Notes under the pieces: model-generated
Databases searched by the model: none
Seen by the model: only the letters and a program-made list of their open reading frames with translations
What the model was told of the DNA's origin: nothing
Source of the DNA: Gammaproteobacteria bacterium
GTDB taxonomy: Bacteria; Pseudomonadota; Gammaproteobacteria; Pseudomonadales; JADFDG01
Assembly: GCA_018262975.1 (NCBI GenBank)
Contig: JADFDG010000003.1
Location: 1-64,000, forward strand
Length of the DNA stretch: 64,000 nt
Direction of reading: 5' to 3'
Shown: positions 3,380 through 38,476 of the stretch, in pieces
Layout of the letters: the number at the start of each line of letters is the position of its first letter
How positions within the stretch are numbered: the first letter of the stretch is position 1
Program-made: the position numbers and the translations under genes

Positions 3380-4729
3380 CTACTGGATGCCGAATGCAAG
3401 CATGGCCCGGGCGACGCGCCGGAACCCGGCGCGATTGGCGCCCAGCGAATAGTCGACGCCATCGGGTGTTTCGCCATATTGCACGCACTGGTCGTGGATG
3501 CGCGACATGATGTGCTGCAGGCGCTGGTCGATATCGGCACGCTCCCAGGGCAACGACATGCGGTTCTGGGTGATCTCCAGCCCCGATACGGCCACGCCGC
3601 CGGCATTGGCGGCCTTGCCCGGTACGAACACGATGCTGTTGCTGCGCAGCATGGCGCGTGCTGCCGCGGTCACGGGCAGGTTGGCGCCCTCGATCACCCA
3701 GCGGCAGCCGTTGGCCGCCAGCGTGCGGGCATCGTTTTCGTCCAGTTCGTTTTGCGTGGCGCAGGGCATGGCGATGTCGCAGGACGTTGCCCAGGCTTTC
3801 TGCCCGGCAACGTAGCGTGCGCCGACGGCCGCGGCGCAGTCTGCCAGGGCCCGGTATTCGCCGGTGCGCAACTCCTTCAGGCGTGCCAGTTGCTCCGCCG
3901 CGAAGCCGCCGGGGCCGGCCTCCAGCGTGCCGCGGGAATCGGACAGCGTGAGCACGCGGGCACCACTGGCGCAGAGTTTTTCGGCGGCATGCAGGGCCAC
4001 GTTGCCAGCGCCGGAAACGGCAACCCCGAGACCTTCCAGGGTGCGTTGCCCGCGGGCCAGTACGTGCTGCAGGAAATAGACCACGCCGTAGCCGGTGGCC
4101 TCGGCACGTACCTGGCTGCCGCCCCACAGCACGCCCTTGCCGGTCATGGCCGCGGTGACGGTGCCGGTGATGTGCTTGTATTGCCCGAACAGGAAACCGA
4201 TCTCGCGGGCGCCCACGCCCAGGTCGCCGGCGGGCACGTCGGTGTCCGGCCCGATGTGCCGGTACAGCTCGGTCATGAAGGCCCGGCAGAAGCGCATGAT
4301 CTCGGCGTCGCTGCGCCCGCGCGGGTCGAAGTCGGCGCCGCCCTTCGCGCCACCCATGGGCAGGCCGGTCAGGCTGTTCTTGAACGTCTGCTCGAAGGCC
4401 AGTGCCTGCAGCGTGTCGAGGTTGACCTGGGGATGGAAGCGCAGGCCGCCCTTGTAGGGGCCTACGGCGTTGCTGTGCTGGACGCGGTAGCCGCGGTTGA
4501 CGTGGACCTCGCCGGCATCGTCTTCCCAGCACACGCGGAAGGCGATGATGCGGTCGGGGACCGTCAGGCGCTCGAGCACGCGGGCACGCACCAGCGCGCT
4601 GTCCGCGGCGATGTCGGGCAGCACGCTGGCAGCCACCTCGGCGACGGCGCCGCGGAATTCCGGCAGGCCCTGGTGGTGCGCGTCGAACCGCGCGAGGAAA
4701 CGTGCCAGCTCGTCATCGCCGTTGCTCAT
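3380..4729 (-). CDS. gdhA: NADP-specific glutamate dehydrogenase
   Basis: The enzyme interconverts 2-oxoglutarate plus ammonia and L-glutamate using NADP(H). At 449 residues it has the usual length of the bacterial hexameric enzyme. Substrate-binding PYKGGLRFHP is at 91-100, and catalytic-lysine PMGGAKGG is at 124-131 (Lys129). A Rossmann coenzyme domain with SGAGNVALHAAEKL lies near residue 240. GGGAGA-like Shine-Dalgarno sequence precedes the ATG. It lies 37 bases downstream of valS and 7 bases upstream of a TetR gene, so the regulator may be a local passenger or a controller of the cluster. Confidence 0.96.
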   Translation of the reverse strand: MSNGDDELARFLARFDAHHQGLPEFRGAVAEVAASVLPDIAADSALVRARVLERLTVPDRIIAFRVCWEDDAGEVHVNRGYRVQHSNAVGPYKGGLRFHPQVNLDTLQALAFEQTFKNSLTGLPMGGAKGGADFDPRGRSDAEIMRFCRAFMTELYRHIGPDTDVPAGDLGVGAREIGFLFGQYKHITGTVTAAMTGKGVLWGGSQVRAEATGYGVVYFLQHVLARGQRTLEGLGVAVSGAGNVALHAAEKLCASGARVLTLSDSRGTLEAGPGGFAAEQLARLKELRTGEYRALADCAAAVGARYVAGQKAWATSCDIAMPCATQNELDENDARTLAANGCRWVIEGANLPVTAAARAMLRSNSIVFVPGKAANAGGVAVSGLEITQNRMSLPWERADIDQRLQHIMSRIHDQCVQYGETPDGVDYSLGANRAGFRRVARAMLAFGIQ

Positions 4730-22475: not shown

Positions 22476-22943
22476 ATGCGTCTGACCACCAAGGGCCGCT
22501 ATGCGGTCACCGCGATGCTCGACCTGGCCATCAATGCGGACAAGGGGCCGGTAAGCCTGGCCGACATTTCCGAGCGCCAGGGCATCTCCATTTCCTACCT
22601 CGAGCAACTGTTCGCCAAACTGCGCAAGAACGAACTGGTGAGCAGCGTGCGTGGCCCGGGTGGCGGTTACCGCCTGGCGCGGCCGGCGAAGGAAGTCTTC
22701 GTGGCCAGCATCATCGATGCGGTGGACGAGCAGGTCGACGCGACGCGCTGCAGCGGCGAGGGCACCTGCCAGGACGGCGGCATGTGCCTGACCCACTACC
22801 TGTGGCAGGACCTGTCGGCACAGATCCACAACTTCCTGTCGAACATCAGCCTGGGCGACCTGGTCGCGCGCCAGGAAATCCGCGCGATTTCCGATCGCCA
22901 GCGCGAGCGGCAGCGTCCGGCGGACGTCATCAACCTGCGCTGA
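22476..22943 (+). CDS. iscR: Fe-S cluster-dependent transcriptional regulator IscR
   Basis: This Rrf2-family sensor of Fe-S status has 155 residues. The N-terminal winged helix starts [18 protein letters not shown] and includes [19 protein letters not shown] and the wing [11 protein letters not shown]. The [2Fe-2S] ligands are Cys92, Cys98 and Cys104, with His107, at the same numbers as in E. coli IscR. ATG at 22476 follows GGGGGAA. An open frame further upstream would cross the operator. It is followed by REP elements and a terminator-like hairpin before iscS, which may uncouple the two genes. Confidence 0.96.
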
Positions 22944-22950
22944 GCGACCG

Positions 22951-22974
22951 TCGGGGGCATGGCCCCCTCGCTAC
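22951..22974 (-). repeat. REP element a (GTAG-headed palindrome)
   Basis: On the minus strand this reads GTAGCGAGGGGGCCATGCCC then CCGA: a GTAG head followed by an imperfect GGGGGC-CATG-GCCCCC palindrome. It is identical over 24 bases to REP element c at 24214-24237. It stands head-to-head with element b, 2 bases away, just after the iscR stop. Confidence 0.82.
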
Positions 22975-22976
22975 AC

Positions 22977-23000
22977 GCAGGCAGGGGGGCATGCCCCCGA
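22977..23000 (+). repeat. REP element b (diverged)
   Basis: GCAGGCAGGGGGGCATGCCC then CCGA differs from element a at 4 of 24 positions, including GTAG to GCAG in the head. With element a it forms a BIME-like inverted pair between iscR and iscS. Confidence 0.7.
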
Positions 23001-23012
23001 CGCGTTATCATG

Positions 23013-23044
23013 ACGGCGGCATGCGCGGGCATGCCGCCGTTTTC
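23013..23044 (+). terminator. Terminator-like hairpin between iscR and iscS
   Basis: ACGGCGGCATG (23013-23023), a 6-base loop CGCGGG, and CATGCCGCCGT (23030-23040) make a perfect 11-bp stem followed by TTTTCGTTT. It could terminate or attenuate transcription from the iscR promoter before iscS. It ends about 20 bases before the iscS start codon. Confidence 0.6.
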
Positions 23045-23062
23045 GTTTGCAGGAGATCCGCC

Positions 23063-24217
23063 GTGAGCCGTCGCGCCATTTACCTCGATTACGCCGCCAC
23101 CACGCCGGTCGATCCGCGGGTTGTTGCGCGCATGGTCGACTGCCTGGGCCCGGAAGGCAATTTCGGCAACCCCGCCTCGCGTTCGCACGGGTACGGCTGG
23201 CTGGCCGAGGAAGCGGTGGAGAACGCGCGCCTGCAGGTCGCCGAACTGGTCAACTGCGATGCGCGCGAGATCGTCTGGACTTCCGGTGCCACCGAGAGCG
23301 ACAACCTCGCCATCAAGGGCGCGGCGCTGCACTACCGTGACAAGGGACGCCATGTCGTCACCAGTGCCATCGAGCACAAGGCGGTGCTGGATTCCTGCCA
23401 CTGGCTGGAAATGCAGGGTTTCGAGGTGACATATCTCTCGCCGGGCCCGGACGGCATCATCGCGCCGGCGCAACTGGCCGGCGCGCTGCGCGACGACACC
23501 GTGCTGGTGTCGCTGATGCACGTGAACAACGAGATCGGCACCATCAACGATATCGCCGCGCTCGGTGCTGTCTGCCGCGACCGTGGCGTGGTCTTCCACG
23601 TGGACGCCGCGCAATCCACCGGCAAGTTGCCGATCGACCTGGCGACGCTGCCGGTGGACCTGATGAGTTTCAGCGCGCACAAGACGTACGGGCCGAAGGG
23701 CATCGGGGCGCTGTACGTGCGCCGCCTGCCGCGTGTCAACCTGGAGGCACAGATGCACGGTGGCGGCCACGAGCGCGGGCTGCGGTCAGGCACGCTGGCG
23801 ACGCACCAGATCGTCGGCATGGGCGAGGCTTTCGAGATCGCCGGCCGGGAAATGCAGGAGGAGGGCGCGCGCATCGCTGCGCTGCGTGACCGGCTGTGGG
23901 CGGGGCTTTCGCAATTGCCGGACGTCTACCTGAACGGCAGCGCCAGTGCGCGCATCCCCCACAACCTGAACGTCGCCTTCGGCGGCGTGCACGGCGAGGC
24001 GTTGCTCAACGCGCTCAAGGACATCGCGGTGTCCACCGGTTCGGCGTGCAACTCGGCGACGGTGGAGCCGTCCTACGTGCTGACCGGCATCGGCGTGCGG
24101 CGCGAGTTGGCCGATTCGTCGCTGCGCTTCTCGCTGGGGCGTTTCACCACCGCCGACGAGATCGACCGCGCGGTGGCGCATGTCCTCGAGGTCGTGCCGC
24201 GCCTGCGCGGTTTGTAG
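23063..24217 (+). CDS. iscS: Cysteine desulfurase, IscS-type with short C-terminus
   Basis: This PLP enzyme takes sulfur from cysteine as a protein persulfide for Fe-S clusters and tRNA thiolation. The PLP lysine is Lys207 ([10 protein letters not shown]) and the active cysteine Cys329 ([15 protein letters not shown]), one residue from the E. coli IscS positions (206 and 328). The GTG start at 23063 has AGGAG 7 bases upstream. The protein has 384 residues. The last ~20 residues of canonical IscS, which contact IscU, are missing, and it ends RLRGL. No iscU follows. The stop codon TAG lies within the GTAG head of a REP element. Confidence 0.93.
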
Positions 24218-24237
24218 CGAGGGGGCCATGCCCCCGA
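24214..24237 (+). repeat. REP element c overlapping the iscS stop codon
   Basis: GTAGCGAGGGGGCCATGCCC then CCGA is the exact reverse complement of the sequence at 22951-22974. Its GTAG head contains the TAG stop of iscS. It is tail-to-tail with element d across 17 bases, forming an inverted pair between two convergent genes. Confidence 0.82.
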
Positions 24238-24254
24238 TGCACCTGGCAGGCGGG

Positions 24255-24278
24255 TCGGGGGCATGGCCCCCTCTCTAC
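24255..24278 (-). repeat. REP element d overlapping the patatin-gene stop codon
   Basis: On the minus strand this reads GTAGAGAGGGGGCCATGCCC then CCGA, one mismatch from elements a and c. Its GTAG head supplies the TAG stop of the leftward patatin gene. A further isolated GTAGCGAGGG (24285-24294, plus strand) lies in the last codons of that gene. Confidence 0.8.
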
Positions 24279-25249
24279 GGGCGGGTAGCGAGGGCGGCGC
24301 GGACGGCGGCGGGCGCCGTGCGTTGCGCGGTTTCGAACACGCCGGCCCGTCGCGCGGGATCCATCATGTTGAAGCCGATCGCCGCGAGGTCCTCGGCGCC
24401 CGGTTCCAGGCGGATGACGCGGATGCCGGCCTGTTCCAGCAGCGCCACTTCACGGTCGACGATCGCGGTCATGTAGCGGCGCGCGGCGCGTTCGAGGCGC
24501 GCCAGCGGCGAGCGCGGGGCATCCGGTCGCGAAGAGGCCATCGGCGCCAGCACGATCGCTTCTTCCACGCCCTGGCCGATCACGAAATCCGCCGACACCG
24601 GCGAGGCGATGCCGCCGTCGAGGAAGGTGCGCCCTTCGTGCGTCACCGGCGGGCACCAGCCGGGCACGGCGTAGCTTGCGCAGACGGCGCGGTTGAGCGG
24701 CATGGGCGGCGCGTCACCGCGGCCCAGCGCGACGCGTTCGCCGCTGTCGGCATCCACCGCCATGATCCAGGTGCGCGGGTGGGGCGCCCACGCGCCGGGC
24801 GCCACCACGCTGTCGATCAGCCGGACGAAGGGCCGCATGTCGGCGCGCCCCTGCGGCAGGATGCCGGTGAGCGCGGTGAGCGCGCTGACCTCGCCGCGCA
24901 GTCCTTTCTTCACCAGGGCCGTGCCGGTGAGCGCCGCGGCGGGCAGCGGCGGCAGCGCGCCGCCGGTATCTGTGTCGTGGTTCCAGGCGCAATCGGCGAG
25001 CTCGCCGCGCTCGCTGTCCATCATCCGCGACACCGGCACGCCGGCGCCCAGCAGGGCGGCCAGCACCGCACCGGCGGAGGTGCCGACCAGGATGTCGGCA
25101 TCGCGCGCATCCCAGTCGAGGGCGCGCTGCAGTTCGTCGAGCACCGGGATGCTCCAGGCCGCGCCGGCGACGCCGCCGCAGCCGAGCACCAGCGCGCGTT
25201 TCGGCGCTGCGGCAGGCATGGTCGCCGCGGTTTTCGTGCGCTTACGCAT
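24275..25249 (-). CDS. Patatin-like phospholipase/esterase
   Basis: This Ser-Asp dyad lipid acyl hydrolase has 324 residues. The oxyanion motif LGCGGVAGAAW is at 22-32, the nucleophile motif GTSAG at 56-60 (Ser58), and the catalytic Asp is in FLDGG near residue 209. There is no signal peptide, so it is probably cytosolic. Its ATG overlaps the monooxygenase stop by 8 bases (ATGCGTAA), so it is translationally coupled to the BVMO. A role in hydrolysing the ester produced by the BVMO is a reasonable inference. The long frame upstream inside the BVMO gene is not used. Confidence 0.88.
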   Translation of the reverse strand: MRKRTKTAATMPAAAPKRALVLGCGGVAGAAWSIPVLDELQRALDWDARDADILVGTSAGAVLAALLGAGVPVSRMMDSERGELADCAWNHDTDTGGALPPLPAAALTGTALVKKGLRGEVSALTALTGILPQGRADMRPFVRLIDSVVAPGAWAPHPRTWIMAVDADSGERVALGRGDAPPMPLNRAVCASYAVPGWCPPVTHEGRTFLDGGIASPVSADFVIGQGVEEAIVLAPMASSRPDAPRSPLARLERAARRYMTAIVDREVALLEQAGIRVIRLEPGAEDLAAIGFNMMDPARRAGVFETAQRTAPAAVRAALATRP

Positions 25250-26735
25250 GCTGCACCCCGCGCGCCGGCGCTGCTTCGCGTTGCTGGTGGTAGCTGGCGT
25301 GATCGAATTCGCCGAGCAGCCGGCGCATGGTCTGCGTGCTCCACGGGAAGCCGATGCTGTTGCGGCCATTGGCGTCGATGTAATAGCTCGAGCAGCCGCC
25401 GGTGTTCCAGACGGTGCCGGCGAGGTCGCGCTGCACCTCGCGGTTCCAGGCGTCCTGCGCGTCCTGGCGCACTTCCAGGCGTTCCACGCCGTGGCGCCGC
25501 ATGGCGCGCACCGCGCCCATGATGTAGTCGAGCTGCGACTCGATGACGATGAAAGCCGAGTTGTTGCCGATCGCCAGGTTCGGGCCCAGTACCAGGAAGA
25601 AGTTCGGGTAGCCGGCGATGGTGGTGCCGCGGTAGGCCTGCGGGCTGCCCTGCCAGAGCGCGTTGAGCGACACGCCGGCGGTGCCGTACACGTGCGAGGC
25701 ATTCGGCTGTTCGGCGACGTGGAAACCGGTGCCGAGGATGATGGTATCGACCTCGCGCCTGCTGCCGTCCTGGCCGATGAGTGTGCGGCCCTGCACTGCC
25801 TTCACGCCGGTGGCGAGCACGTCCACGTTGGGCTGCGCGACTGCCGGGTAGTAGTCATTGGACAGCAGCACGCGCTTGCAGCCGAGCACGTAGTCGGGCG
25901 TGAGCTTCGCGCGCAGGACCGGGTCCTGCACCGCGTGCTCGAGGTGCGCGCGCGCGAGGCGCTCGTAGAAGCGCATCAGTGACGGGTGGCGGAAGCCGAG
26001 ACCGAACACCTCCAGGCCGTTGTAGATGGTGCGGCGCAGCAACTCCGTTGCGTACGGCAGGCCCAGCAGCTTCTGCGACAGCGCCGGCATGTCGGCGTCC
26101 GGTTTGGGGAGGATCCACTGCGGGGTGCGCTGGAACAGCACCAGCTGCGACACCTTCGGCTGGATCTGCGGCACGAACTGGATCGCCGAGGCGCCGGTCC
26201 CGATCACCGCCACGCGCTCGCCGGTGAGGTCGTGGCCGTGGTCCCAGCGCGCGGAATGGAACAGCTTGCCGTCGAAGTCCTTCAGCCCCGGTATGTCCGG
26301 CACGATGGGTTCGTGCAGGTAGCCAGTGCAGGACACCAGCGCGCGCGCGTGGAAGGTGCCGTCCGGTGTCTGCACGATCCAGCGCCGGCTACGCTCGTCC
26401 CAGCGGCATTCCTGCGCCGGTGTTTCGTAGCGGATGTGGTCGTGAATGCGATGCCGCTGCGCCACGTCCTGCACATAGTCGAGGATCTCGCCCTGCGCGG
26501 CGAACACCCGGCTCCAGTCCGGTTTCTGCGCGAAGGAGTAGGAATAGAGCGCGGATGGCACGTCGCAGGCGCAGCCGGGATAGGTGTTGTCGCGCCAGGT
26601 GCCGCCGGCGGCGGCCGCCTTCTCGAGGATGACGAAGTCGGTGACGCCCTCGCGCAGCAGGCGCACCCCGGCGCCGATGCCGCTGATGCCGGCGCCGATG
26701 ATGAGGACGTCGGTGTTGATCGGGGTCTGGCTCAT
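25242..26735 (-). CDS. Flavin-containing Baeyer-Villiger-type monooxygenase
   Basis: This FAD/NADPH enzyme has 497 residues. The FAD-binding motif GAGISG is at 14-19, the type I BVMO fingerprint F-D-G-KLF-H-SAR-W-D at 154-165 (FxGxxxHxxxW[P/D]), and the NADPH-binding GTGASA at 179-184. Such enzymes insert oxygen next to a ketone to give esters or lactones. It is the middle gene of a tightly coupled trio: the SDR stop overlaps its start by 4 bases, and its stop overlaps the patatin start by 8 bases. The substrate cannot be read from the sequence. Confidence 0.9.
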   Translation of the reverse strand: MSQTPINTDVLIIGAGISGIGAGVRLLREGVTDFVILEKAAAAGGTWRDNTYPGCACDVPSALYSYSFAQKPDWSRVFAAQGEILDYVQDVAQRHRIHDHIRYETPAQECRWDERSRRWIVQTPDGTFHARALVSCTGYLHEPIVPDIPGLKDFDGKLFHSARWDHGHDLTGERVAVIGTGASAIQFVPQIQPKVSQLVLFQRTPQWILPKPDADMPALSQKLLGLPYATELLRRTIYNGLEVFGLGFRHPSLMRFYERLARAHLEHAVQDPVLRAKLTPDYVLGCKRVLLSNDYYPAVAQPNVDVLATGVKAVQGRTLIGQDGSRREVDTIILGTGFHVAEQPNASHVYGTAGVSLNALWQGSPQAYRGTTIAGYPNFFLVLGPNLAIGNNSAFIVIESQLDYIMGAVRAMRRHGVERLEVRQDAQDAWNREVQRDLAGTVWNTGGCSSYYIDANGRNSIGFPWSTQTMRRLLGEFDHASYHQQREAAPARGVQHA

Positions 26736-27580
26736 GGGTTCCTCTTCGGATTGGCGAGGGAGGCAATGCGTTCTTCATAGCCGGCGCGGGCATCGCGGTC
26801 GATGGCCTCGAGCACGCGGCGGTCGCCCAGCGTGCGGCGCAGGCCGCGCAGCAGCCAGGACGGCGCCACGCCCTGCAGCGGCGCCAGCGGCGCCATGTAG
26901 CGGGGCACGGTGACGGCCGGCAGGCGGTGAATGATGGCGGCGACGATCGCCTCGGCGACGTCCTCCGGCGAGGCGGTGGGAATACCGCGGGCGGCCACGT
27001 CGGTGCCGGCGGCCAGCTCGGTGGTGACCTTCGCCGGCATCACGTGCGAGAAATCGATGCCGCTGTCGCGGTATTCCTCGCGCAGCGTGTCGGTGAGCCC
27101 GACCACCGCGAATTTCGTCGCGCAGTACACCGCGAGGCCCGGCACCGCGAGCACGCCGGCCATCGACGCCACGTTCACCACGTGGCCACGGCCGCGGGCG
27201 ATCATGCCCGGGAGCGCGAGCTTGCAGCCGTGGATCACGCCGCGCAGGTTGATGTCGATCTGCGCGTCGGAGAGCGCGTCGGTTTCGTCGAGGAACGGGC
27301 CGCTGGGCATGATGCCGGCGTTGTTGACCAGCACGTCCACCGGCCCCAGCGCCGCCTCGGTGCCGGCCAGGAAGCGCGCGAAGGATGCGCGGTCGCGTAC
27401 GTCGAGCGCGTCGCCGTGGCCACCGATCGACTGCGCGGCCTCGCGGGCCAGCGCGGCGTCGATGTCGCCGATCGCCACGCGGGCGCCGCGCGCCGCCAGC
27501 GCTCGCGCGGTGGCCAGGCCAATGCCGCGGCCGCCGCCGGTGATCGCCACCACCGCGCCCCGCAGGGTACTCACTGCCAT
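26732..27580 (-). CDS. SDR family oxidoreductase
   Basis: This 282-residue short-chain dehydrogenase has TGGGRGIG at 14-21, Asp near 39 after GARVAIGD (suggesting NAD preference), NNAG at 86-89, catalytic Ser139 and YCATK at 152-156. The extended C-terminus (after VPRYMAPLAPLQG) is typical of SDRs next to BVMOs. It is the first gene of the SDR-BVMO-patatin unit, with GAGGCAG before the ATG. It probably converts a secondary alcohol to the ketone taken by the BVMO (inference). It is divergent from an AraC-type regulator across 133 bases. Confidence 0.88.
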   Translation of the reverse strand: MAVSTLRGAVVAITGGGRGIGLATARALAARGARVAIGDIDAALAREAAQSIGGHGDALDVRDRASFARFLAGTEAALGPVDVLVNNAGIMPSGPFLDETDALSDAQIDINLRGVIHGCKLALPGMIARGRGHVVNVASMAGVLAVPGLAVYCATKFAVVGLTDTLREEYRDSGIDFSHVMPAKVTTELAAGTDVAARGIPTASPEDVAEAIVAAIIHRLPAVTVPRYMAPLAPLQGVAPSWLLRGLRRTLGDRRVLEAIDRDARAGYEERIASLANPKRNP

Positions 27581-27713
27581 GTCTGCCTCGGGAAGTTGTC
27601 CGGAGCCCGCAGTGTCGGTGCCGCCGGTGGCTGGCCGTGAGGCGCGCGGGCGCCGGAAGGCCTATCATTATGGGCCACCCTGGCCTCCCATCCCTGTCCT
27701 CCCGACCCTGCCC

Positions 27714-28754
27714 ATGAGCGTTCCGGCCTACCTGACCCGACCGACCGTCTCGATCGCCTACCTGCAACTGCTGGTGGAGATCCTCGTGGAGCGAGGCATA
27801 CCTGCCGCGCGCCTGCTGGCCGGCCAGCCGATTTCCCCTCAACTGCTCGAGCAGCCGGACGCGCGCATGTCGGCCTACCAGTGGACGCGGCTGGTAATCC
27901 GCGGCCTCGAGCTCACCGGTGACCCGGGCCTTGGCTACGAGTACGGCCTGCGCATGCGGCCGACCGCGCACGGCGTGGTCGGCTACGCGTCGATGACCTG
28001 CACGACGATGCGCCAGGCGATGGAGATCTCGGTGCGCTACGCGCGCGTGCGGCAGGCGCACTTCACCATGCACCTGCAGGAGAATGCCGGGCAGGCGCTG
28101 CTGGAACTGCGCGAGAAATACCCGATCGCGGTGCTGCGCAGTTTCTTCATCGAGAACATCCTGCTCGGGCTGGTGCGCGGCTATGCGGTGCTGCTCGGGC
28201 GCGAACCGCGGGACGTGGAAGGCCTGGAGATCTGGTTCGACTGGCCGGAACCGCCCTGGCACGCGGCCTGGGCGTCGCGCCTGCCGCCAGTGCGCTTCTC
28301 GATGCCGGTGAACGGCGTGCGCCTGTCCGCTGCCTGCCTGGCATTGCGCCCGGTGCTGGCCGATCCGCACGCTTCGCAGCAGGCGATCGCGCTGTGCGAG
28401 CGCGAACTGGCGCTGGCCGCCGATGCCGAGGCCGACATCGCCACGCGGGTGCGCGCGTTGCTGGTGCCGGGCAAGCATGGTGGTTATCCGCCACTGGATG
28501 AAGTCGCATCCCGGCTGGCGATGTCCGGCCGTACCCTCAAGCGGAAATTGCAGCAGGCCGGCACCTCCTTCCTGCTGATGCTGGAAGAGGCGCGTCGTCG
28601 CGATGCCCACGCCTTGTTGGCGCACACGGAACTGTCGGTGCAGGACGTGGCGGCGCGCCTCGGTTACCTGAATCCCGCCAATTTCTCGCGCGCGTTCAAC
28701 CAGTGGACCGGCGAATCGCCCACCGCCTACCGGGTGCGGGTGCGCGCCGCCTGA
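27714..28754 (+). CDS. AraC family transcriptional regulator
   Basis: The 346-residue protein has an N-terminal effector domain of the Arabinose_bd type seen in OruR/ArgR-like regulators (residues ~15-200) and a C-terminal pair of HTH motifs (residues ~245-340: DEVASRLAMSGRTLKRKLQQ, then VQDVAARLGYLNPANFSRAF). It is divergent from the SDR-BVMO-patatin genes and is their most likely activator. ATG at 27714 is chosen because the upstream extension runs antisense through the SDR gene. TATCATTAT at 27663-27671 could be its -10 region. It converges on the next gene with 11 bases between. Confidence 0.9.
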   Translation: MSVPAYLTRPTVSIAYLQLLVEILVERGIPAARLLAGQPISPQLLEQPDARMSAYQWTRLVIRGLELTGDPGLGYEYGLRMRPTAHGVVGYASMTCTTMRQAMEISVRYARVRQAHFTMHLQENAGQALLELREKYPIAVLRSFFIENILLGLVRGYAVLLGREPRDVEGLEIWFDWPEPPWHAAWASRLPPVRFSMPVNGVRLSAACLALRPVLADPHASQQAIALCERELALAADAEADIATRVRALLVPGKHGGYPPLDEVASRLAMSGRTLKRKLQQAGTSFLLMLEEARRRDAHALLAHTELSVQDVAARLGYLNPANFSRAFNQWTGESPTAYRVRVRAA

Positions 28755-28765
28755 GGGCGCGCGCG

Positions 28766-29962
28766 TCAGGCGGCGTTGCGGCCCTTGTAGGCGGCCTGCT
28801 CGTTGGTCTGCACCTTGTAGCCGTAGGCCTTGCGGTGCTCGTTGCGCGCCAGTTCGCGGCGGTACCGCATGGCCCCGGCGGCATACAGCAGGCGCTCGCC
28901 GCCGGGCAGGTAGCGGTGCACCAGCCAGAATCCGCGCCCCAGGCCGCGGAAGACGCGGATGCCCCAGTAGTCGCCCTTGTCCTCGATCTTCATGCCGGTG
29001 ACGTAATCGTTGCCGGACAGGTAGCGGGTGATCTGGTGCAGGAAGGTGCGCGCCATGCCGTAGGGAATGCGCGTGTCGCGGTGCGCTTTCTGCGCCACCT
29101 CGTCGAGGATGCACTTGGTCTGCTCGCTCAGCTTGTCCGGCTTCGCCTGGTGCTTGAGGGATGCCAGGAAGAACGCCTGCTGCTCCTCGATGGTCCTGGG
29201 CAGCACGCCTTCGTCGATGCCCAGCACGTAGCCGGCGTAGCGCCACAGCAGCAGGAAGCTGTCGATTTCCTCGCGCTCCAGGCGGATGCCCAGTTGCAGC
29301 AGCGAGCGGATGTTCAGGTAACCGAACAGCCCCAGCGTGATGGCGAGGTCCTGCTGGTTGATCGGGACTTCCGAGGGATGCTGGAAACGGCCGCTGTCGA
29401 CCAGGAAGCGGCGGATCGCCGCGTGCAGCAGGCGCACGCGCGCCATCGTCTCGTGGCCCTTCTCGCCGGGTACCAGCTGGCCGGGGAAAGCCAGGCGGAT
29501 CACCATGGCGACGGTCTCGGTGAGCCGCTGCGTGGCGCTGCCGGACAGCATGCCGGTCATGGCGGTGACCATGGCCATCTTCTGGAACACGGCGCCGCCG
29601 ACCAGCGAGCCGGCGAACAGCGACACGCCCATGAACGGCGCATAGGACGCCAGCAGGCGCTGGCCCTTTTCCATCGCCGCGAAGTCGGCCCAGGCCGGCA
29701 CGGTGTTGATGTGGGCAAGGAACGCGCCGCAGTCGGCATCGCCGCGCGCGGCCTTCTCGCGCACCGCGCCGAGCAGGTCGTGCATGTTCTTCAGCGGGCC
29801 GTCGGCGGCCAGCCCGGCCAGCACGCGGTCGGCGAGCGGATCGCCGACGGTGCGCCAGTGATCGAGGGCATCTTCCGTGTACGGGGTAACGTAGCGCAGT
29901 TCGTGGAAGCGTGGCGTCACGCCCAGCGGCGGAAGCTGCGACAGGTCTAGGACGTTGGTCAT
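28766..29962 (-). CDS. DUF2236 / latex-clearing-protein-like oxygenase
   Basis: This 398-residue protein belongs to the DUF2236 (MpaB/Lcp oxygenase catalytic) family. The segment SATQRLTET ... MARVRLLHAAIRR places Arg146, Thr150 and His180 with the same spacing (4 and 30) that I recall for the essential Arg164, Thr168 and haem-ligand His198 of Streptomyces Lcp. A b-type haem oxygenase is therefore plausible. The ATG at 29962 has GAGGG upstream. An ATG at 29983 would overlap the preceding gene. It follows the Gcr-type gene by 10 bases in the same direction as suf. The substrate is unknown. Confidence 0.82.
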   Translation of the reverse strand: MTNVLDLSQLPPLGVTPRFHELRYVTPYTEDALDHWRTVGDPLADRVLAGLAADGPLKNMHDLLGAVREKAARGDADCGAFLAHINTVPAWADFAAMEKGQRLLASYAPFMGVSLFAGSLVGGAVFQKMAMVTAMTGMLSGSATQRLTETVAMVIRLAFPGQLVPGEKGHETMARVRLLHAAIRRFLVDSGRFQHPSEVPINQQDLAITLGLFGYLNIRSLLQLGIRLEREEIDSFLLLWRYAGYVLGIDEGVLPRTIEEQQAFFLASLKHQAKPDKLSEQTKCILDEVAQKAHRDTRIPYGMARTFLHQITRYLSGNDYVTGMKIEDKGDYWGIRVFRGLGRGFWLVHRYLPGGERLLYAAGAMRYRRELARNEHRKAYGYKVQTNEQAAYKGRNAA

Positions 29963-29972
29963 GGCAGGACCC

Positions 29973-31934
29973 TCAGGTGTCATTGCGTGGCGGCCACAGG
30001 AAGGACAGCGGTTGCTGGCGCAGGCGCCGTGCCAGCGACCGCAGCAGGGCGCCGCCGTCGTCGATGCGCTGACCGCGTGCGCGCAGCGCGACCCACAACG
30101 CCAGCGCGAAACTGACCGCCAGGTTGACCAGCGCGATGAGCAGGATGCCGGCCAACGACACGGCCATCACCGCCACTGGCAGCCCGAAATCGCTCGCACC
30201 CAGGGCAATGGCGAAGTTGGCTGCCGAGAAGGTGACATGGCGGATGTCGAGCGGCAGGCCGAGGATGGCGCCGACGAAGCCGGTCAGGCCCAGGGCGAAG
30301 CCGAAGAACGCATTGCCCGCCACGCCTCCCAGGTTGTCCTGCATCCACGCGGCGAAGCGGTCGCGGCGCGTCGCGCCGGCAACCCGCGCCAGCCAGCCGA
30401 CGCGGCGGATGCGATCGGCCAGGCGCTCGTACACGGCGAGGTTGTCGACGTACCCGGTGACCAGTCCCGACACGAACAACCATACGCCGGCGATCGCCGC
30501 GTGGAACAGCGCCGGACTGGTGAGCGGATCGAGTTCGGCCAGCAGGTGCGGGGTCTTCGCGACGGGCGTGGCGGAGCCGCCCAGCACCAGCAGCAGCGTG
30601 GCGAGCAGGGCGATCGGCACCGCCAGCATCACGTTGCCCAGCACCGCGACCAGTTGCGTGCGCGTGACCCGCGACACCAGCAGGCTCACGGCATCGTTGT
30701 CGGCGCGCCGGCCCTGCCCGGCGGCCAGGTGCGCGGCGATGGTCTGCGCGGTCATCGCCGGCTGCTTGGTGGCGATGGTGAAGTGCAGCACGTAGATCAG
30801 CACGAAGCCGAGCGCATAGTTCAGGCTGAATCCCAGCGCCTCGACCAGCGGCGGCAGGTGCAGGGCAGCGATCTGCATCTTGGCGATCGCCATCAGGCCG
30901 ATGATGCCGCCGGCGCCCAGCGCCGAGCGGAACATCGCCAGGTATTCGCTGCGCGTGCGCGTGACGTAGTGCTCGCCGGTGCGACTGGCATTCTCGGTGG
31001 TGAGCAGCGCCAGCAGCGAGGTGCTTTCGCCCAGGTGCTGGCCGACGTCGTGGGCCTGGCCCTCGGCGAGCGCCAGCTGCACGGCGAGGGCGATGCGTCG
31101 CTGGACGGCATCAGTGGACTCGCTGCCGAATTCGCGCGCGATCGCCAGCAGTTCCGCCAGGCGGGCGAGTGACTGCGTCACCCGTTGCAGCAGGAAGGTC
31201 AGGCGCAGGCTGGCGCCGCCGCTGCGCGCGCTGCGGCGCACGCGCGCCACCACGTCATGGCACTGTGCCAGCAAGACGTCGAGATCGGCGATATCGGGCG
31301 CCGGGCCGTTTGCCACCGCCACGCGCGCCGCCGCCAGCCACTGCTGCAGCAGGGCGTTCTGCGCCAGGAACGGGTTGTTGTGTTCGCGCGGCACGCGGTA
31401 GTGGCGTTGCAGTTCCGGTTCGACACCCATGGCGGCGAGCCGGACCGACAGCAGGTCGATCGCATCGAGCAACGCGACGCGCGGCCGCAGCCAGAGGCGT
31501 GCTTCGTCATCGCCGATAGCGAGCGCGCGCACCAGGCGCTCGCCATCCGCCGCCGGGAGACGTTCGAGCCAGCCGGCGTCGCGGCCGCTGTCGAACAGCG
31601 TGCCGAACTGACCGGCCAGCGTCAGGTCGCGTGGGGCTGGCAGCAGGCGGCCGGTGATGCGCCGGCCAAGCTCGGTGAAGAAACCGGTGTTGGCGAGGAT
31701 GCCGGTTTCTGCCAACAGCTTGGCGGCCGTGCCGTCACCGAGCAGTTCGCGCAAGGCAGCGCGCAATGCGTCGCGCAGCTCGGGATACACCTCCAGCAAG
31801 TGGCACAGGGCGTCCACGCCGTTGCCCGGCTCGTCCGCCTCGAAGCGGCGCACCGCGGCCACCAGCGCCTCGAGACCGGCGGCGCGATCTCCCCCGGCGA
31901 TGAGCTTGAGTGCCTCGTGGGGTCCGGTACGCAT
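29973..31934 (-). CDS. SpecificRecomb/Gcr family multi-pass membrane protein
   Basis: The 653-residue protein matches the family annotated as 'site-specific recombinase Gcr' (PF10136). The soluble N-terminal half contains GEHYVTRTRSEYLAMFRSA at its end. The C-terminal half has at least six hydrophobic helices, with the conserved HFTIATKQPAMTAQT and NLGGVAGNAFFGF stretches. No recombinase catalytic motif is visible, and a membrane function is more likely than recombination. It starts 21 bases after sufE and is followed 10 bases later by the Lcp-like gene, so it may belong to the suf transcript. Confidence 0.82.
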   Translation of the reverse strand: MRTGPHEALKLIAGGDRAAGLEALVAAVRRFEADEPGNGVDALCHLLEVYPELRDALRAALRELLGDGTAAKLLAETGILANTGFFTELGRRITGRLLPAPRDLTLAGQFGTLFDSGRDAGWLERLPAADGERLVRALAIGDDEARLWLRPRVALLDAIDLLSVRLAAMGVEPELQRHYRVPREHNNPFLAQNALLQQWLAAARVAVANGPAPDIADLDVLLAQCHDVVARVRRSARSGGASLRLTFLLQRVTQSLARLAELLAIAREFGSESTDAVQRRIALAVQLALAEGQAHDVGQHLGESTSLLALLTTENASRTGEHYVTRTRSEYLAMFRSALGAGGIIGLMAIAKMQIAALHLPPLVEALGFSLNYALGFVLIYVLHFTIATKQPAMTAQTIAAHLAAGQGRRADNDAVSLLVSRVTRTQLVAVLGNVMLAVPIALLATLLLVLGGSATPVAKTPHLLAELDPLTSPALFHAAIAGVWLFVSGLVTGYVDNLAVYERLADRIRRVGWLARVAGATRRDRFAAWMQDNLGGVAGNAFFGFALGLTGFVGAILGLPLDIRHVTFSAANFAIALGASDFGLPVAVMAVSLAGILLIALVNLAVSFALALWVALRARGQRIDDGGALLRSLARRLRQQPLSFLWPPRNDT

Positions 31935-31955
31935 GCGCTGTGAACCCGGCCGTGG

Positions 31956-32402
31956 TCAGGCGCAGGCGCGCGCCGTGTCCTTGATGCGTTGCACCATCGC
32001 GCGCAGGCCGTTGCCGCGCGTCATGCTCAGGTGGCGCATGAGGTCGAGGCGCGCGAACAGCGCGTCGATGTCGAACGCCAGCACCTCGGCGGGCGACTTG
32101 CCGTTGTAGGCGGCCAGCACGATGGCGGCCAGTCCCTTGACGATCAGCGCGTCCGAATCGATGCCCAGCCACAGGCGGCCGGTGGCCGGGTCATGGCGGG
32201 TTTCCAGCCACACCTGGCTCTGGCAGCCGCGCACCAGGCGCGCCTCGGTGCGCAGTGCCTCAGGCATGGCCGGGACCTGCTTGCCCAGGTCGATGATGTA
32301 GGCGTAGCGCGCTTCCCAGTCGTCGAGGAACTCGAGCGCGTCGACGATATCGTCGGTGCCGATGGTGTTGCCGAAAGGCTGGCTGGCGAGGTCGTAGGTC
32401 AT
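31956..32402 (-). CDS. sufE: Cysteine desulfuration protein SufE
   Basis: SufE accepts persulfide sulfur from SufS and delivers it to SufB. The protein has 148 residues with the conserved RLVRGCQSQVW motif (acceptor Cys60), an EFLDDWEARYAYIIDLGK region near the start, and the family helix GLAAIVLAAYNGKSP. Length and motifs are typical. It is the last suf gene here, 28 bases after sufT and 21 bases before the Gcr-type gene. Confidence 0.94.
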   Translation of the reverse strand: MTYDLASQPFGNTIGTDDIVDALEFLDDWEARYAYIIDLGKQVPAMPEALRTEARLVRGCQSQVWLETRHDPATGRLWLGIDSDALIVKGLAAIVLAAYNGKSPAEVLAFDIDALFARLDLMRHLSMTRGNGLRAMVQRIKDTARACA

Positions 32403-32430
32403 CGGGGCAGTTTACCCGATCGTGGCGGCG

Positions 32431-32964
32431 TTACAGCGGCAAGCCCAGTTCCAGCTTGACCTCGTCGGACAGGTCGCTGCGGTCCCAGGGCGGGTCGAAC
32501 TCCAGGTCGACCTTCACCTCGCGCACGTTGGGCACCTTGCCGACGCGGTACTGCACGTCGCCGACCAGTACCGGGCCCATGCCGCAGGTGGGTGCGGTCA
32601 GCGTCATGCGGATGCGCACGGTATTGCCCTCCACCGCGACCGCGCGCACCAGGTGCAGGTCGACGATGTTCACCGGGATCTCCGGGTCGTAGATGGTGCG
32701 CAGCGCCTTCCACACGTCGTCCTCGCGCACGCGCTCGCCGTCCGGCGGCGCGAAGTCGAAGTCGAGGTCGCAGGTCAGCCCGAGGGCGTCCGCGTCGGTG
32801 CCGTCCACCCGCGCCATGTTGCCCTTGACCGTCACCGTGAACGTGCCGCCGAGCGCCTGGCGCAGGGTGATGAAGCTGTTCTTCGGGATGGTGATGGCGG
32901 TGCCCACCGGCACGAGGCGGGCGGGGCAGTCGCGGGTGGTGACGACGGTGCGCTGGTCGGCCAT
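32431..32964 (-). CDS. sufT: Fe-S assembly protein SufT (DUF59 domain)
   Basis: This is a MIP18/PaaD-like (DUF59) protein with an N-terminal extension, 177 residues, matching SufT. The DUF59 core contains VWKALRTIYDPEIPVNIVDL and the TAPTCGMGPVLVGDV stretch with a conserved cysteine. The N-terminal part (VPVGTAITIPKNSFITLRQALGG) is specific to the SufT type. SufT helps Fe-S maturation under high demand in other bacteria. ATG at 32964 is preferred. A GTG at 32976 would overlap the sufA stop. Confidence 0.88.
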   Translation of the reverse strand: MADQRTVVTTRDCPARLVPVGTAITIPKNSFITLRQALGGTFTVTVKGNMARVDGTDADALGLTCDLDFDFAPPDGERVREDDVWKALRTIYDPEIPVNIVDLHLVRAVAVEGNTVRIRMTLTAPTCGMGPVLVGDVQYRVGKVPNVREVKVDLEFDPPWDRSDLSDEVKLELGLPL

Positions 32965-32972
32965 GGCGGCGC

Positions 32973-33329
32973 TCACTTCACGGTGAAACTTTCACCGCAG
33001 CCGCATTCGCCGGTGACGTTCGGGTTGTGGAACTTGTAGAAGGCGTTGAGGCCTTCCTTGACGTAATCGATCTCGGTGCCGTTGACCATGGCGAGCGCGC
33101 TGCCGTCGACGTAGACCGTCACGCCGTCGCCGAAGGTGAACTTGCGGTCGCCCGGTTGTTCTTCCTTCACCAGGTCCAGCACGTACATGTAGCCCGAGCA
33201 GCCGCTGGGCTTCACGGCAAGGCGCAGGCCGATGGCATGCTCGCGGGCCAACTGGGCGCGCGTCTGCGCGATGGCCGCCTCGGTCATGGTGACGGTTTCC
33301 TGGCCGGGAACGTAGCTCTGTACCGACAT
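32973..33329 (-). CDS. sufA: A-type Fe-S carrier SufA/ErpA-like
   Basis: This A-type carrier of 118 residues has the three conserved cysteines Cys44 (PSGCSGYMY) and Cys109/Cys111 (GECGCGESF). It passes clusters from the SUF scaffold to apo-proteins. The ATG at 33329 has GGGAGG upstream, and the open frame beyond it runs into sufS. The product is between SufS and SufT in the operon. By sequence alone SufA, IscA and ErpA are hard to tell apart, so the name rests on the operon. Confidence 0.9.
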   Translation of the reverse strand: MSVQSYVPGQETVTMTEAAIAQTRAQLAREHAIGLRLAVKPSGCSGYMYVLDLVKEEQPGDRKFTFGDGVTVYVDGSALAMVNGTEIDYVKEGLNAFYKFHNPNVTGECGCGESFTVK

Positions 33330-33348
33330 GGCTTCGACCTCCCTCGGG

Positions 33349-34572
33349 TCAGAGAAACTTGCGCACTTTTTCCAGTGCGGCAATGAAACGATCGATGTCG
33401 TCGCGGGTGTTGTACACCGACAGCGACGCGCGCACCGTACCGGGCACGCCCAGGCGCTGCATCAGCGGCATGGTGCAGTGGTGGCCGGTGCGCACCGCCA
33501 CGCCCTGCTGGTCGAGCAGCGTGCCGACGTCGTGCGGGTGGGCGCCGTCCATCAGGAACGAGAACACCGACACCTTGTGGCGCGCGGTGCCCACCGGCTT
33601 CAGGCCGGGGATGGCGGTGGCGCGCGCGGTGAGTTCGGCGAGCAGCGCGTCCTCGTGGGCGGCCAGCGCCGCGCGGTCCTGCGCGGTGAACCAGTCGATG
33701 GCAGCGCCGAGGCCGATGTTGCCGGCGATGTGCGGCGTGCCGGCCTCGAACTTGTAGGGCAGCTTGTTGTATGTGCTGGTCTCGTAGCTCACCGTCTCGA
33801 TCATCTCGCCGCCGCCGTGCCAGGGCGGCATCGCGTCCAGCAATTCGCGGCGGCCCCACAGCACGCCGGTGCCGGTGGGGGCGAACAGCTTGTGGCCGGA
33901 GAACACGTAGAAATCGCAACCGAGCGCCTGCACGTCCACCGGCAGGTGCGACACCGCCTGGGCGCCGTCGATCAGCACCAGCGCGCCGGCGGATTTCGCC
34001 GCGGCGATGATGTCCCGGACCGGGTTCACCGTGCCCAGCGCATTCGACACGTGCGTGCAGGCGACCAGCCGCGTGCGTTCGCCGAGCAGGGCGCGGTAGC
34101 CGTCGAGGTCGAGTTCGCCGGCATCGTTCATCGGGATCACGCGCAGTTTCGCGCCGGTGGCCTGGCAGGCCATCTGCCAGGGCACCAGGTTGGCGTGGTG
34201 CTCCAGGGCGGACACGATGATCTCGTCGCCGGCCTTGAGGAAGGTGCGTGCCCAGCTGCAGGCCACCAGGTTGATCGACTCGGTGGTGCCGCGGGTGAAG
34301 ATCACCTCGGCGTCCTCGCGCGCATTGATGAAGCGCTGCACCGACGTGCGCGCCGCCTCCATCACCTGCGTGGCGTGGTCGGCCAGCTGGTGGGCGCCGC
34401 GGTGCACGTTGGAGTTGTACTGGCGGTAGTAGTCATCGACCGCCTCGATCACCGCCAGCGGCTTCTGCGTGGTGGCGGCGTTGTCCAGGTAGACCAGCGG
34501 CTTGTCGCCAGCCAGCGTGCGCGCCAGCAGCGGGAACTGCGCGCGCAGGGCGCCAATGTCGGGCGCGCTCAC
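33349..34572 (-). CDS. sufS: Cysteine desulfurase SufS
   Basis: This group II desulfurase has 407 residues. NAATTQKP near the N-terminus, PLP lysine at Lys228 (SGHKLFAPTGTG) and active Cys366 (RTGHHCTMPLM) are at nearly the E. coli SufS positions (226 and 364). It works with SufE. The initiator is GTG at 34572, which overlaps the sufD stop as GTGA. A longer frame into sufD is rejected. With iscS this gives the window two desulfurases. Confidence 0.95.
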   Translation of the reverse strand: MSAPDIGALRAQFPLLARTLAGDKPLVYLDNAATTQKPLAVIEAVDDYYRQYNSNVHRGAHQLADHATQVMEAARTSVQRFINAREDAEVIFTRGTTESINLVACSWARTFLKAGDEIIVSALEHHANLVPWQMACQATGAKLRVIPMNDAGELDLDGYRALLGERTRLVACTHVSNALGTVNPVRDIIAAAKSAGALVLIDGAQAVSHLPVDVQALGCDFYVFSGHKLFAPTGTGVLWGRRELLDAMPPWHGGGEMIETVSYETSTYNKLPYKFEAGTPHIAGNIGLGAAIDWFTAQDRAALAAHEDALLAELTARATAIPGLKPVGTARHKVSVFSFLMDGAHPHDVGTLLDQQGVAVRTGHHCTMPLMQRLGVPGTVRASLSVYNTRDDIDRFIAALEKVRKFL

Positions 34573-35879
34573 CGGGAACCCCCGGGGCGTCCGCTGCGCT
34601 GCGCGAACCAGCGGGCAAACCGCCCGTGCACCCAGCCGGCGAGGCCCGGCACCGGCACGTCGTCGACCATCGCGTTGACGAAGCCCAGCGCCAGCATCAG
34701 CTCGGCGTCCGGCCGGGCGATGCCGCGCGACTGCAGGTAGAACACGCCGGTCTCGTTGAGCTGGCCGACGGTGGCGCCGTGCGAGCACTTCACGTCGTCG
34801 TTGTAGATTTCCAGTTCCGGTTTGGTGTCCACCTCGGCGTCGGCGGACAGCAACAGGTTGTTGTTCACCAGTTCCGCGGAAGTCTGCTTCGCACCCGGGT
34901 GGATATGGATGCGGCCGTTGAACACCGCCTTGCCGTTGCCGCCCACCAGTCCTTTCCAGGACTGGTCGCTGGTGCCGTGCGGTTGCGCGTGGTCGATGCG
35001 CGCCTGGGTGTCGGCGTGTTCGTCGGTGCCAACCAGCCAGGCGCCCTTGAGCGCGAGTTCCGCGCCGGCGCCGTTGAGCGTGCAGGCGAGGTCGGTGCGC
35101 TTCAGCCGGCTGCCGGTCATCAGTTGCCAGGCATCGCAGCGGCTGCCGCCCTGCAGGTTGAGGTGCAGGCTGCCGACGTGGAACTGGCGGTGGTCGGCGA
35201 AATCCAGGCGTGCGTGCACCAGCCGGGCGTCGCGTGCCAGGTCGATGGCGGTGACGGCATTGGTGAACAGGTTGTCGCCGTGGCCGGTGTACTGCTCCAC
35301 GAGCGTCAGCGACGCCTGTGCCTCGACGCTCACCAGCAGGCAGGCCTGCGCGGTGGCCGGTGCATCGCCGGTGGCGTGGAAGACCACGTGCAGCGGCTTG
35401 CCGGCCGTGGCGCCGCGCGGCACGCGCACCAGCAGGCCATCGGCGAAGGCGGCGCCGTTCAGCGCGGCGAACGGCAGGCGGGCGGTGTCGGTGAGCGCCA
35501 GCAGGGCGCGCGCGTGCGCCTGCTCGGCGTCCGGCAGGCTGACAAGTGGCGCGACGATCAATTCGCCGCCGGCGGGCAGCGACGATTGCGTCGCGTCGTA
35601 GCGGCCGTTGACGAACACCACGCGCCAGGCGTCGAGCGGCGGCAGGTCGTCAGCCGGTACGCTGGCGCGACTGACCGTGGCGCCCGCGGCCAGTGCCGCG
35701 GACTGCGTCAGCGCGTGCAGGCTGGTGTATTTCCAGGCCTCGGCCTTGCGGCCCGGGAAGGCGGTGTCCTGCAACGCGCGCTGGGCGCGCGCGCGGTAGT
35801 CGGCCAGCCATGCCGGGCAGGTGGCGGACGCGGCCAGCGCGAGGGCTTGGGCAGGCAGGCTGTCGTGGTCGGCGCTCAT
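34569..35879 (-). CDS. sufD: Fe-S assembly scaffold subunit SufD
   Basis: SufD is part of the SufB-C2-D scaffold complex. The protein has 436 residues. The N-terminal helical part contains PGRKAEAWKYTSL (the typical 'EAWKYT' motif), then comes a beta-helix core. The C-terminus has IYNDDVKCSHGATVGQL, with the conserved Cys-His pair, and LQSRGIARPDAELMLALGF, all diagnostic of the SufB/SufD family. It lies between sufC and sufS with a 4-base overlap to sufS. Confidence 0.94.
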   Translation of the reverse strand: MSADHDSLPAQALALAASATCPAWLADYRARAQRALQDTAFPGRKAEAWKYTSLHALTQSAALAAGATVSRASVPADDLPPLDAWRVVFVNGRYDATQSSLPAGGELIVAPLVSLPDAEQAHARALLALTDTARLPFAALNGAAFADGLLVRVPRGATAGKPLHVVFHATGDAPATAQACLLVSVEAQASLTLVEQYTGHGDNLFTNAVTAIDLARDARLVHARLDFADHRQFHVGSLHLNLQGGSRCDAWQLMTGSRLKRTDLACTLNGAGAELALKGAWLVGTDEHADTQARIDHAQPHGTSDQSWKGLVGGNGKAVFNGRIHIHPGAKQTSAELVNNNLLLSADAEVDTKPELEIYNDDVKCSHGATVGQLNETGVFYLQSRGIARPDAELMLALGFVNAMVDDVPVPGLAGWVHGRFARWFAQRSGRPGGSR

Positions 35880-35891
35880 GCGTGCTCCGCG

Positions 35892-36647
35892 TCAGCCGGC
35901 CGCGGCGGCGTCTTTCAGCCAGCCGTAGCCTTTCTCTTCCAGCTCCAGCGCCAGTTCCTTGCCGCCGGATTTCACGATGCGGCCGCCGGCCAGCACGTGC
36001 ACGTGGTCGGGCACGATATGGTCGAGCAGGCGCTGGTAGTGGGTGACCAGCACGAACGAGCGGCCGGCGTCGCGCAGCGAGTTCACGCCCTGCGCCACCA
36101 CCTGCAGCGCGTCGATGTCGAGGCCGGAGTCGGTCTCGTCGAGGATGCCCAGCGCCGGTTCCAGCAGCAGCATCTGCATGATCTCGTTGCGCTTCTTCTC
36201 GCCGCCGGAGAAGCCCTCGTTGACGCCGCGCTTGAGGAAGGCCTGGTCGAGGTTCACCTTCGTGCACGCCTCGCGCGCCTTCTTCATGAAGGTCACCGCG
36301 TCCCACACGTCCTTGCCCTGCGCCTTGCGCACCTGTTCCAGCGAGGCCTTGAGGAACTCGAGGTTGGACACGCCGGGGATTTCCACCGGGTACTGGAAGG
36401 CCAGGAACATGCCCTTGCGTGCGCGTTCTTCCGGCGCCAGGCCGGTGATGTCCTCGCCGTTGAACAGGATCTCGCCGGCGGTCACCTCGTAGCCGTCGCG
36501 CCCGGACAGCACAGCGGCCAGCGTGCTCTTGCCGGACCCGTTGGGACCCATGATGGCGTGCACTTCGCCGCTGCCGATGGTCAGGCTCAGGCCCTTGAGG
36601 ATCTCCTTGCCCTGGACGTTGGCGTGGAGGTTGCGGATTTCCAGCAT
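35892..36647 (-). CDS. sufC: Fe-S assembly ATPase SufC
   Basis: This soluble ABC-type ATPase of the SUF scaffold has 251 residues. Walker A is GPNGSGKSTL, the signature motif FSGGEKKRNE, Walker B LGILDETDSGLDIDAL, and the switch His is in LVTHYQRLL. The start at MLEIRNLHA (36647), with GGAAG upstream, gives the usual length. An ATG 11 codons further up is possible. There is no membrane-spanning partner, as expected for SufC. Confidence 0.95.
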   Translation of the reverse strand: MLEIRNLHANVQGKEILKGLSLTIGSGEVHAIMGPNGSGKSTLAAVLSGRDGYEVTAGEILFNGEDITGLAPEERARKGMFLAFQYPVEIPGVSNLEFLKASLEQVRKAQGKDVWDAVTFMKKAREACTKVNLDQAFLKRGVNEGFSGGEKKRNEIMQMLLLEPALGILDETDSGLDIDALQVVAQGVNSLRDAGRSFVLVTHYQRLLDHIVPDHVHVLAGGRIVKSGGKELALELEEKGYGWLKDAAAAG

Positions 36648-36693
36648 CTTCTTGGCTTCCGGTATCTGTTGGCGTCGCATGCGTGGCCGGGTA

Positions 36694-38199
<1,506 letters not shown>

Positions 38200-38255
38200 T
38201 CTATAGAGGAAGCGAGCTCAAGGCTCCCGGGGTTGTCGGTCCGGGCCGGGGCGCG

Positions 38256-38261
38256 ATTATG
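38256..38261 (-). promoter_or_regulatory. Candidate -10 element of the suf operon
   Basis: CATAAT on the minus strand matches five of six -10 positions and lies 57 bases upstream of the sufB ATG at 38199. A 17-base spacer would put the -35 (TGGTAT, weak) inside the IscR site at 38279-38303. That is a natural layout for repression or for activator-assisted use of the promoter. Confidence 0.5.
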
Positions 38262-38278
38262 GGCCGTTGCCCGATGCA

Positions 38279-38303
38279 ATACCATAGTAAAATACTCGGG
38301 TAT
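38279..38303. promoter_or_regulatory. Putative IscR type-1-like site upstream of sufB
   Basis: ATACCATAGTAA then AATACTCGGGTAT (25 bases in total) follows the type-1 pattern: ATA-S-Y at the left end, WWW in the centre, and RRS-TAT at the right end. It shares the CGGGTAT/GGGTAT end and the AATAC core with the sites at iscR. It lies in the sufB-ndk gap, overlaps the likely suf -35 region, and is 87 bases before the ndk -10, so suf is the more likely target. Confidence 0.7.
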
Positions 38304-38389
38304 TGGCATGGATCAGCAGAAATACGGTGCCGCGCAGGGCCCGGACAAGTCCGCCGGCGGTCGCGGTAGGCGGCCGGACCCTTCCCGCG

Positions 38390-38395
38390 TATAAT
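38390..38395 (+). promoter_or_regulatory. Candidate -10 element for ndk
   Basis: A perfect TATAAT followed by a GC-rich discriminator (CGCGCGTCC) lies 81 bases upstream of the ndk ATG. No good -35 is seen. The leader that would follow contains a short T-run at 38404-38409. Confidence 0.55.
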
Positions 38396-38476
38396 CGCGC
38401 GTCCTTTTTTGGGGTAGGCGCCTGCCCGCCCCGTTTTCCCTGTAACTCTTTGCCTATCAGGCATTTGGAGACTTCG

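Follow-up and report, generated by a model that had tools for sequence, protein, structure and literature searches.

The closest described counterparts of the system reported here are the REPtrons of Stenotrophomonas and Pseudomonas and the GTAG repeats of Di Nocera et al. (2013). RAYT cleavage has been reported at a CT beside the REP, with both CT and CA used in one system, and the Stenotrophomonas RAYT barely cleaves a GCAG head (PMC8266576). In addition, GTAG heads often supply stop codons, i.e., their stop-codon effect is already published (PMC3733652; Di Nocera et al., 2013).

In the window, i.e., the whole stretch of 64,000 nucleotides analysed here, four 24-base elements lie around iscS (23063–24217, + strand), at the coordinates and on the strands given by a first-pass annotation of this DNA. 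Upstream, between iscR (Rrf2 family; 22476–22943, +) and iscS, an exact copy of the consensus (22951–22974, −) and a GCAG-headed copy with four mismatches (22977–23000, +) are the left and right partners of a head-to-head pair with a 2-nt spacer. Downstream, a second exact copy (24214–24237, +) and a copy with one mismatch (24255–24278, −) form a tail-to-tail pair between iscS and a convergent gene for a patatin-like phospholipase (24275–25249, −). These similarities and pairings agree with the annotation, which had also assigned a GTAG head and a GGGGGC-CATG-GCCCCC palindrome to every element; three of the four heads are indeed GTAG, but that of the 22977 element is GCAG, and the palindrome, although present, reads GGGGGC-CAT-GCCCCC, with 6-base arms and a 3-base loop. 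If a GTAG REP is defined as a GTAG or GTGG head beside a palindrome, 20–40 bp in all, three of the elements fit directly and the fourth has GCAG in place of GTAG. Each GTAG head of the tail-to-tail pair contains the TAG stop of the adjoining gene, that of iscS at 24215–24217 and that of the patatin gene at 24275–24277. At ≤3 mismatches the window holds three matches to the consensus, vs. none in each of 100 dinucleotide shuffles.

A search of the genome (3,306,067 bases in 29 contigs, 99.95% complete) recovered 561 copies of the REP at ≤3 mismatches (288 + 273), compared with 0 for a reversed control, and the count was 566 (292 + 274) when the fifth base was left free. Outside its own genome, the consensus was found as a single 3-mismatch match in each of 3 of the 114 other genomes of the order searched and was absent from the remainder. 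This order is probably GTDB Pseudomonadales, judging by one member whose isc region is 89% identical in DNA to that of Pseudomonas delhiensis. To describe the arrangement of copies, we used a 464-kb sample comprising the window and 20 stretches of 20 kb; this sample is non-random, since some stretches were chosen with REP positions known and one (L163) was chosen for its RAYT gene. Neighbouring pairs among its 118 elements (≤4 mismatches) were tail-to-tail in 36 cases, direct in 12, and head-to-head in 9, with a spacer of exactly 2 nt in 7 of the last. The alternating orientation and regular spacing of a BIME are thus seen in the sample (36 tail-to-tail plus 9 head-to-head), while the gaps flanking iscS hold simple pairs. 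In a set of 94 copies, a pyrimidine (T or C) preceded the head in 96% and followed the element in 95%. The RAYT stretch held 39 REPs vs. a mean of 3.9 in the remaining 19 stretches and, since 5 of the 20 stretches (L146, L147, L148, L156, and L157) contained no element at ≤4 mismatches, dispersal is uneven. Among the matches listed, exact copies numbered 1 on a contig of 319 kb (C11) and 15 on one of 115 kb (C4). Near the RAYT gene, an array of five REPs in fixed order was observed twice (L163, 4318–4491 and 6412–6585), and shorter versions lay at 3658 (four elements) and 5211 (three elements).

The first-pass annotation had made its reading depend on further copies of the 24-mer and on the presence of a RAYT gene, and both exist. 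A profile search returned a single PF01797 match in the genome, and the matching protein was identified as REP_Tyr_transpos by NCBIfam (138.6 bits vs. a cut-off of 80). Its gene has REPs of its own family in inverted pairs on either side, and the head of the REP behind it is the RAYT's own TAG stop. H65 and H67 (HxH) and Y126, the presumed catalytic residues of the family (HUH motif and tyrosine), were invariant in seven aligned sequences, i.e., this protein and six relatives. When the ten RAYT loci from other genomes nearest to this one were inspected, nine had GTAG- or GTGG-headed palindromes with other stems in their vicinity and one (L229) had none. We are therefore highly confident that all four elements belong to a single family of GTAG-headed REPs dispersed by the RAYT (TnpA-REP) encoded in this genome, with background placement at iscS. 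Directly observed in favor of this account are the copy number, sequence, and pairing of the elements, the REP-flanked RAYT with its HxH and tyrosine, the pyrimidine before the head, and placement at gene 3′ ends; the family was probably spread by this matching, single-copy RAYT. The RAYT would nick single-stranded REP DNA beside a pyrimidine-ending target and join the REP elsewhere, and copies would mostly survive where they lie immediately downstream of a stop codon or coincide with one, GTAG in the latter case giving an in-frame TAG.

Placement relative to genes, which were called with a purpose-written codon-usage script, was strongly extragenic: 117 of the 118 sampled elements lay outside called genes (tandem gaps, 65; convergent, 39; divergent, 13), and one lay inside a called gene at a stretch edge. 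REPs were present in 33/218 tandem, 19/53 convergent, and 7/65 divergent gaps of length >0. When the first REP past a gene was on the same strand (n = 56), it formed the TAG stop itself in 22 cases and started 3–55 nt later in 34; in a further 15 cases the first REP was opposed in orientation. Of the 411 genes in the sample, 58 stopped at TAG and 22 of these stops were REP heads, TAG making up 9.3% of stops once the REP-head stops were removed; without the RAYT stretch, the figures were 16 REP stops among 52 TAG stops in 389 genes. For the 22 same-strand REPs of the sample that meet the end of a gene in the frame that yields a stop, no read-through was seen. The list of REP-stopped genes, from which genes <240 nt were dropped, contained 21 of the 22, and 20 of these were scanned against family models, the RAYT having been scanned separately against NCBIfam; the references on the minus strand lacked their first codon, which leaves the 3′ end unaffected. 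Twelve proteins had a usable NCBIfam model, four had no match, and four had a weak or partial one. Eleven of the 12 ended ≤7 positions before the model end (e.g., LptB, 241/241; IlvA, 520/521; and RNase T, 199/200), the furthest being an ABC-F protein at 631/638; the exception was IscS, which fell 21 short. Genes with a REP shortly downstream (20 of 29 scanned) were similar, i.e., mostly full length with a few short of some models. A tentative and rather unlikely reading of this placement is that REP insertion in this lineage is aimed at native stops, using a pyrimidine-ending target that directly precedes the final G of an NYG codon, with GTAG replacing the stop in frame; the repeat would then be a portable stop codon plus hairpin. 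Selection alone could yield the same picture. In any case, this is a counted example of a mobile repeat giving stop codons, which makes its choice of target testable.

The first-pass annotation had presented iscS as bracketed by BIMEs, and this did not prove meaningful. Among 390 genes with both gaps in view, iscS is one of 18 with REPs on either side; REP-bearing gaps are common, and there are no REPs at the other end of the replaced isc segment. Seven of the 18 bracketed genes are in the RAYT stretch and 11 lie outside it. Shuffling the gaps gave a mean of 7.8 bracketed genes (sd 2.4), with 0 of 2000 shuffles reaching 18; REP-bearing gaps are thus more clustered than the shuffle predicts, which we counted, together with the uneven dispersal among stretches, against the account of RAYT dispersal with background placement. 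Nevertheless, the REPs around iscS are this genome's background and their placement is ordinary, so that a misleading lead is removed. In short, the annotation's assignment to GTAG-headed REPs and RAYT holds, given hundreds of genomic copies and a REP-flanked RAYT gene, but its emphasis on iscS does not.

Three more specific readings of the iscS REPs were weighed against dispersal by the RAYT. Since the TAG in a REP head ends IscS (384 aa) 21 residues ahead of the end of its family model, the REP at 24214 could be thought to have broken iscS by a premature stop, removing an IscU-binding tail. The part absent here matches the larger portion of the C-terminal helix with which E. coli IscS contacts IscU; in that protein, loss of residues 376–404 abolished IscU binding (PMC2854127). 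An IscS that serves IscU would be expected to carry this tail in a genome with IscU, and both are absent here, the genome having no PF01592 (IscU) match. However, the tail (SPLW...EWAAH), found in 33/34 relatives of the order with a strong IscU hit, was found in 0/49 with no hit and 0/6 with a weak hit, genomes that lack this REP family. These figures cover the 89 of 114 relatives in which the tail was read (34/55 with a strong hit, 49/53 with none, and 6/6 with a weak one; loci L035–L063 and L164–L223); four no-hit relatives were left out, three with no proper iscS found (G051, G090, and G107) and one with iscS cut by a contig end (G061), and G040, whose IscU hit falls into two pieces, was placed in the IscU-bearing group. 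Since the tail is absent in 55/55 relatives with no or weak IscU, the REP need not be the cause and, with 11 other REP-stopped proteins ending within 7 positions of their models, truncation of IscS by the REP is disfavoured and very improbable indeed. The sole tail-less relative with IscU (G083) has iscU on a separate contig and sufB after iscS, and two IscU-less relatives (G017 and G046) keep a short SPQW remnant. A FastTree phylogeny of 90 IscS rows requires a single change for the tail and two for IscU, so that one old event would suffice; the loss of the tail may have been such a single event rather than repeated coevolution with IscU, and the latter is not claimed. Across this order, the IscU-binding tail and IscU thus co-occur in nearly every case read, and we found no statement of their joint loss in the literature, which was available mostly as partial text.

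The surroundings of iscS raise two further readings, one for each REP pair. The window from 24218 to 38476 contains six other genes after iscS and then, on the opposite strand, a suf cluster (31956–38187, −; sufB-C-D-S-A-T-E, names from sequence and synteny) with sufB beside ndk; the six genes on the iscS side are unrelated. Gene order is iscR-iscS-iscU...ndk-rlmN in two IscU-bearing relatives. Of 13 informative iscU-less relatives (G108, with neither suf nor ndk, was excluded, and ndk was not reached in G005 and G021), 5 continue from iscS into sufB-C-D-S-A-T on the same strand, and in 8 the next gene is ndk. Relative to the collinear order in those five, the iscS-ndk block is most simply read as one inversion, and its left breakpoint coincides with the tail-to-tail pair, which might therefore have mediated, or be the scar of, the rearrangement by which the suf genes came to lie inverted in the iscS-ndk interval. 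The first-pass annotation had likewise put the REPs at the left edge of a replaced isc segment; the right-hand pair does lie there, iscU is missing, and an inverted suf cluster is inside, but there is no REP at the other end. Indeed, a search of the right edge (38188–38476) at ≤6 mismatches found no REP, and a comparison of the two edges found no shared repeat scoring >9 bases, so that an inversion mediated by REPs is unproven. A search for recombination between REPs on either side of the suf block was negative. Moreover, with REPs in about one-third of convergent gaps regardless (19/53), a later insertion is enough and is the economical explanation, and since 8 of the 13 relatives lack a suf block there, the ancestral order is uncertain; we consider a role of the pair in the rearrangement improbable. 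The sufB-ndk gap contains a sequence (38279–38304) that is similar to the type 1 sites bound by IscR and is a putative site of this kind. The head-to-head pair, for its part, lies in an iscR-iscS gap of 119 bp; in the comparison with relatives that the annotation had proposed, the median was 21 among 41 relatives with iscR alongside that lack iscU or have only a weak IscU hit, and 42 among 33 that carry IscU, which suggests that the pair was added to a gap that used to be short. Between this pair and iscS is a terminator-like hairpin (23012–23041, +; 13 pairs, a 4-base loop, and a weak T tract) that ends 21 nt ahead of the iscS start, is not a REP copy, and matched only itself when sought elsewhere within the window. 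The predicted RNA fold of this gap is strong (z = −5.6; −6.9 for the convergent iscS-patatin gap). Pair and hairpin together might be a putative control element, maintained by selection, through which iscS would be expressed independently of iscR, and the length of the gap, its fold, and the position of the hairpin would fit. However, REPs occur in tandem gaps anyway (33/218), terminator-like sites are equally frequent in shuffles of the region (mean 1.0), and one member of the pair, the 22977 element, is degenerate, making such an element unlikely; the expression of iscS may be influenced in some way. With dispersal by the RAYT as the preferred reading, one REP pair would have inserted into the short gap separating iscR from iscS, the GCAG-headed element of this pair probably being no longer a good RAYT substrate, and another would have capped the convergent iscS-patatin gap, where each head now forms a stop codon; the REPs at iscS would probably be, at most, RNA hairpins at transcript ends.

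These results record a REP/RAYT system in a family that, like its genus, is represented by this genome alone. It resembles the REPtrons of Stenotrophomonas and Pseudomonas in its GTAG head, short perfect palindrome, and hundreds of copies, as well as in the inverted REPs around one RAYT gene and the enrichment of REPs near it, but differs from them in having its own stem sequence (PMC2817692, PMC8266576). It is also like the GTAG repeats of Di Nocera et al. (2013; PMC3733652), which lie mostly in tandem and convergent gaps near 3′ ends, are commonly dimers, and have heads that give TAG. Beyond that account, as far as the text available goes, we have counted the share of TAG stops formed in this way (22/58) and found a convergent pair of genes in which both stops are REP heads.
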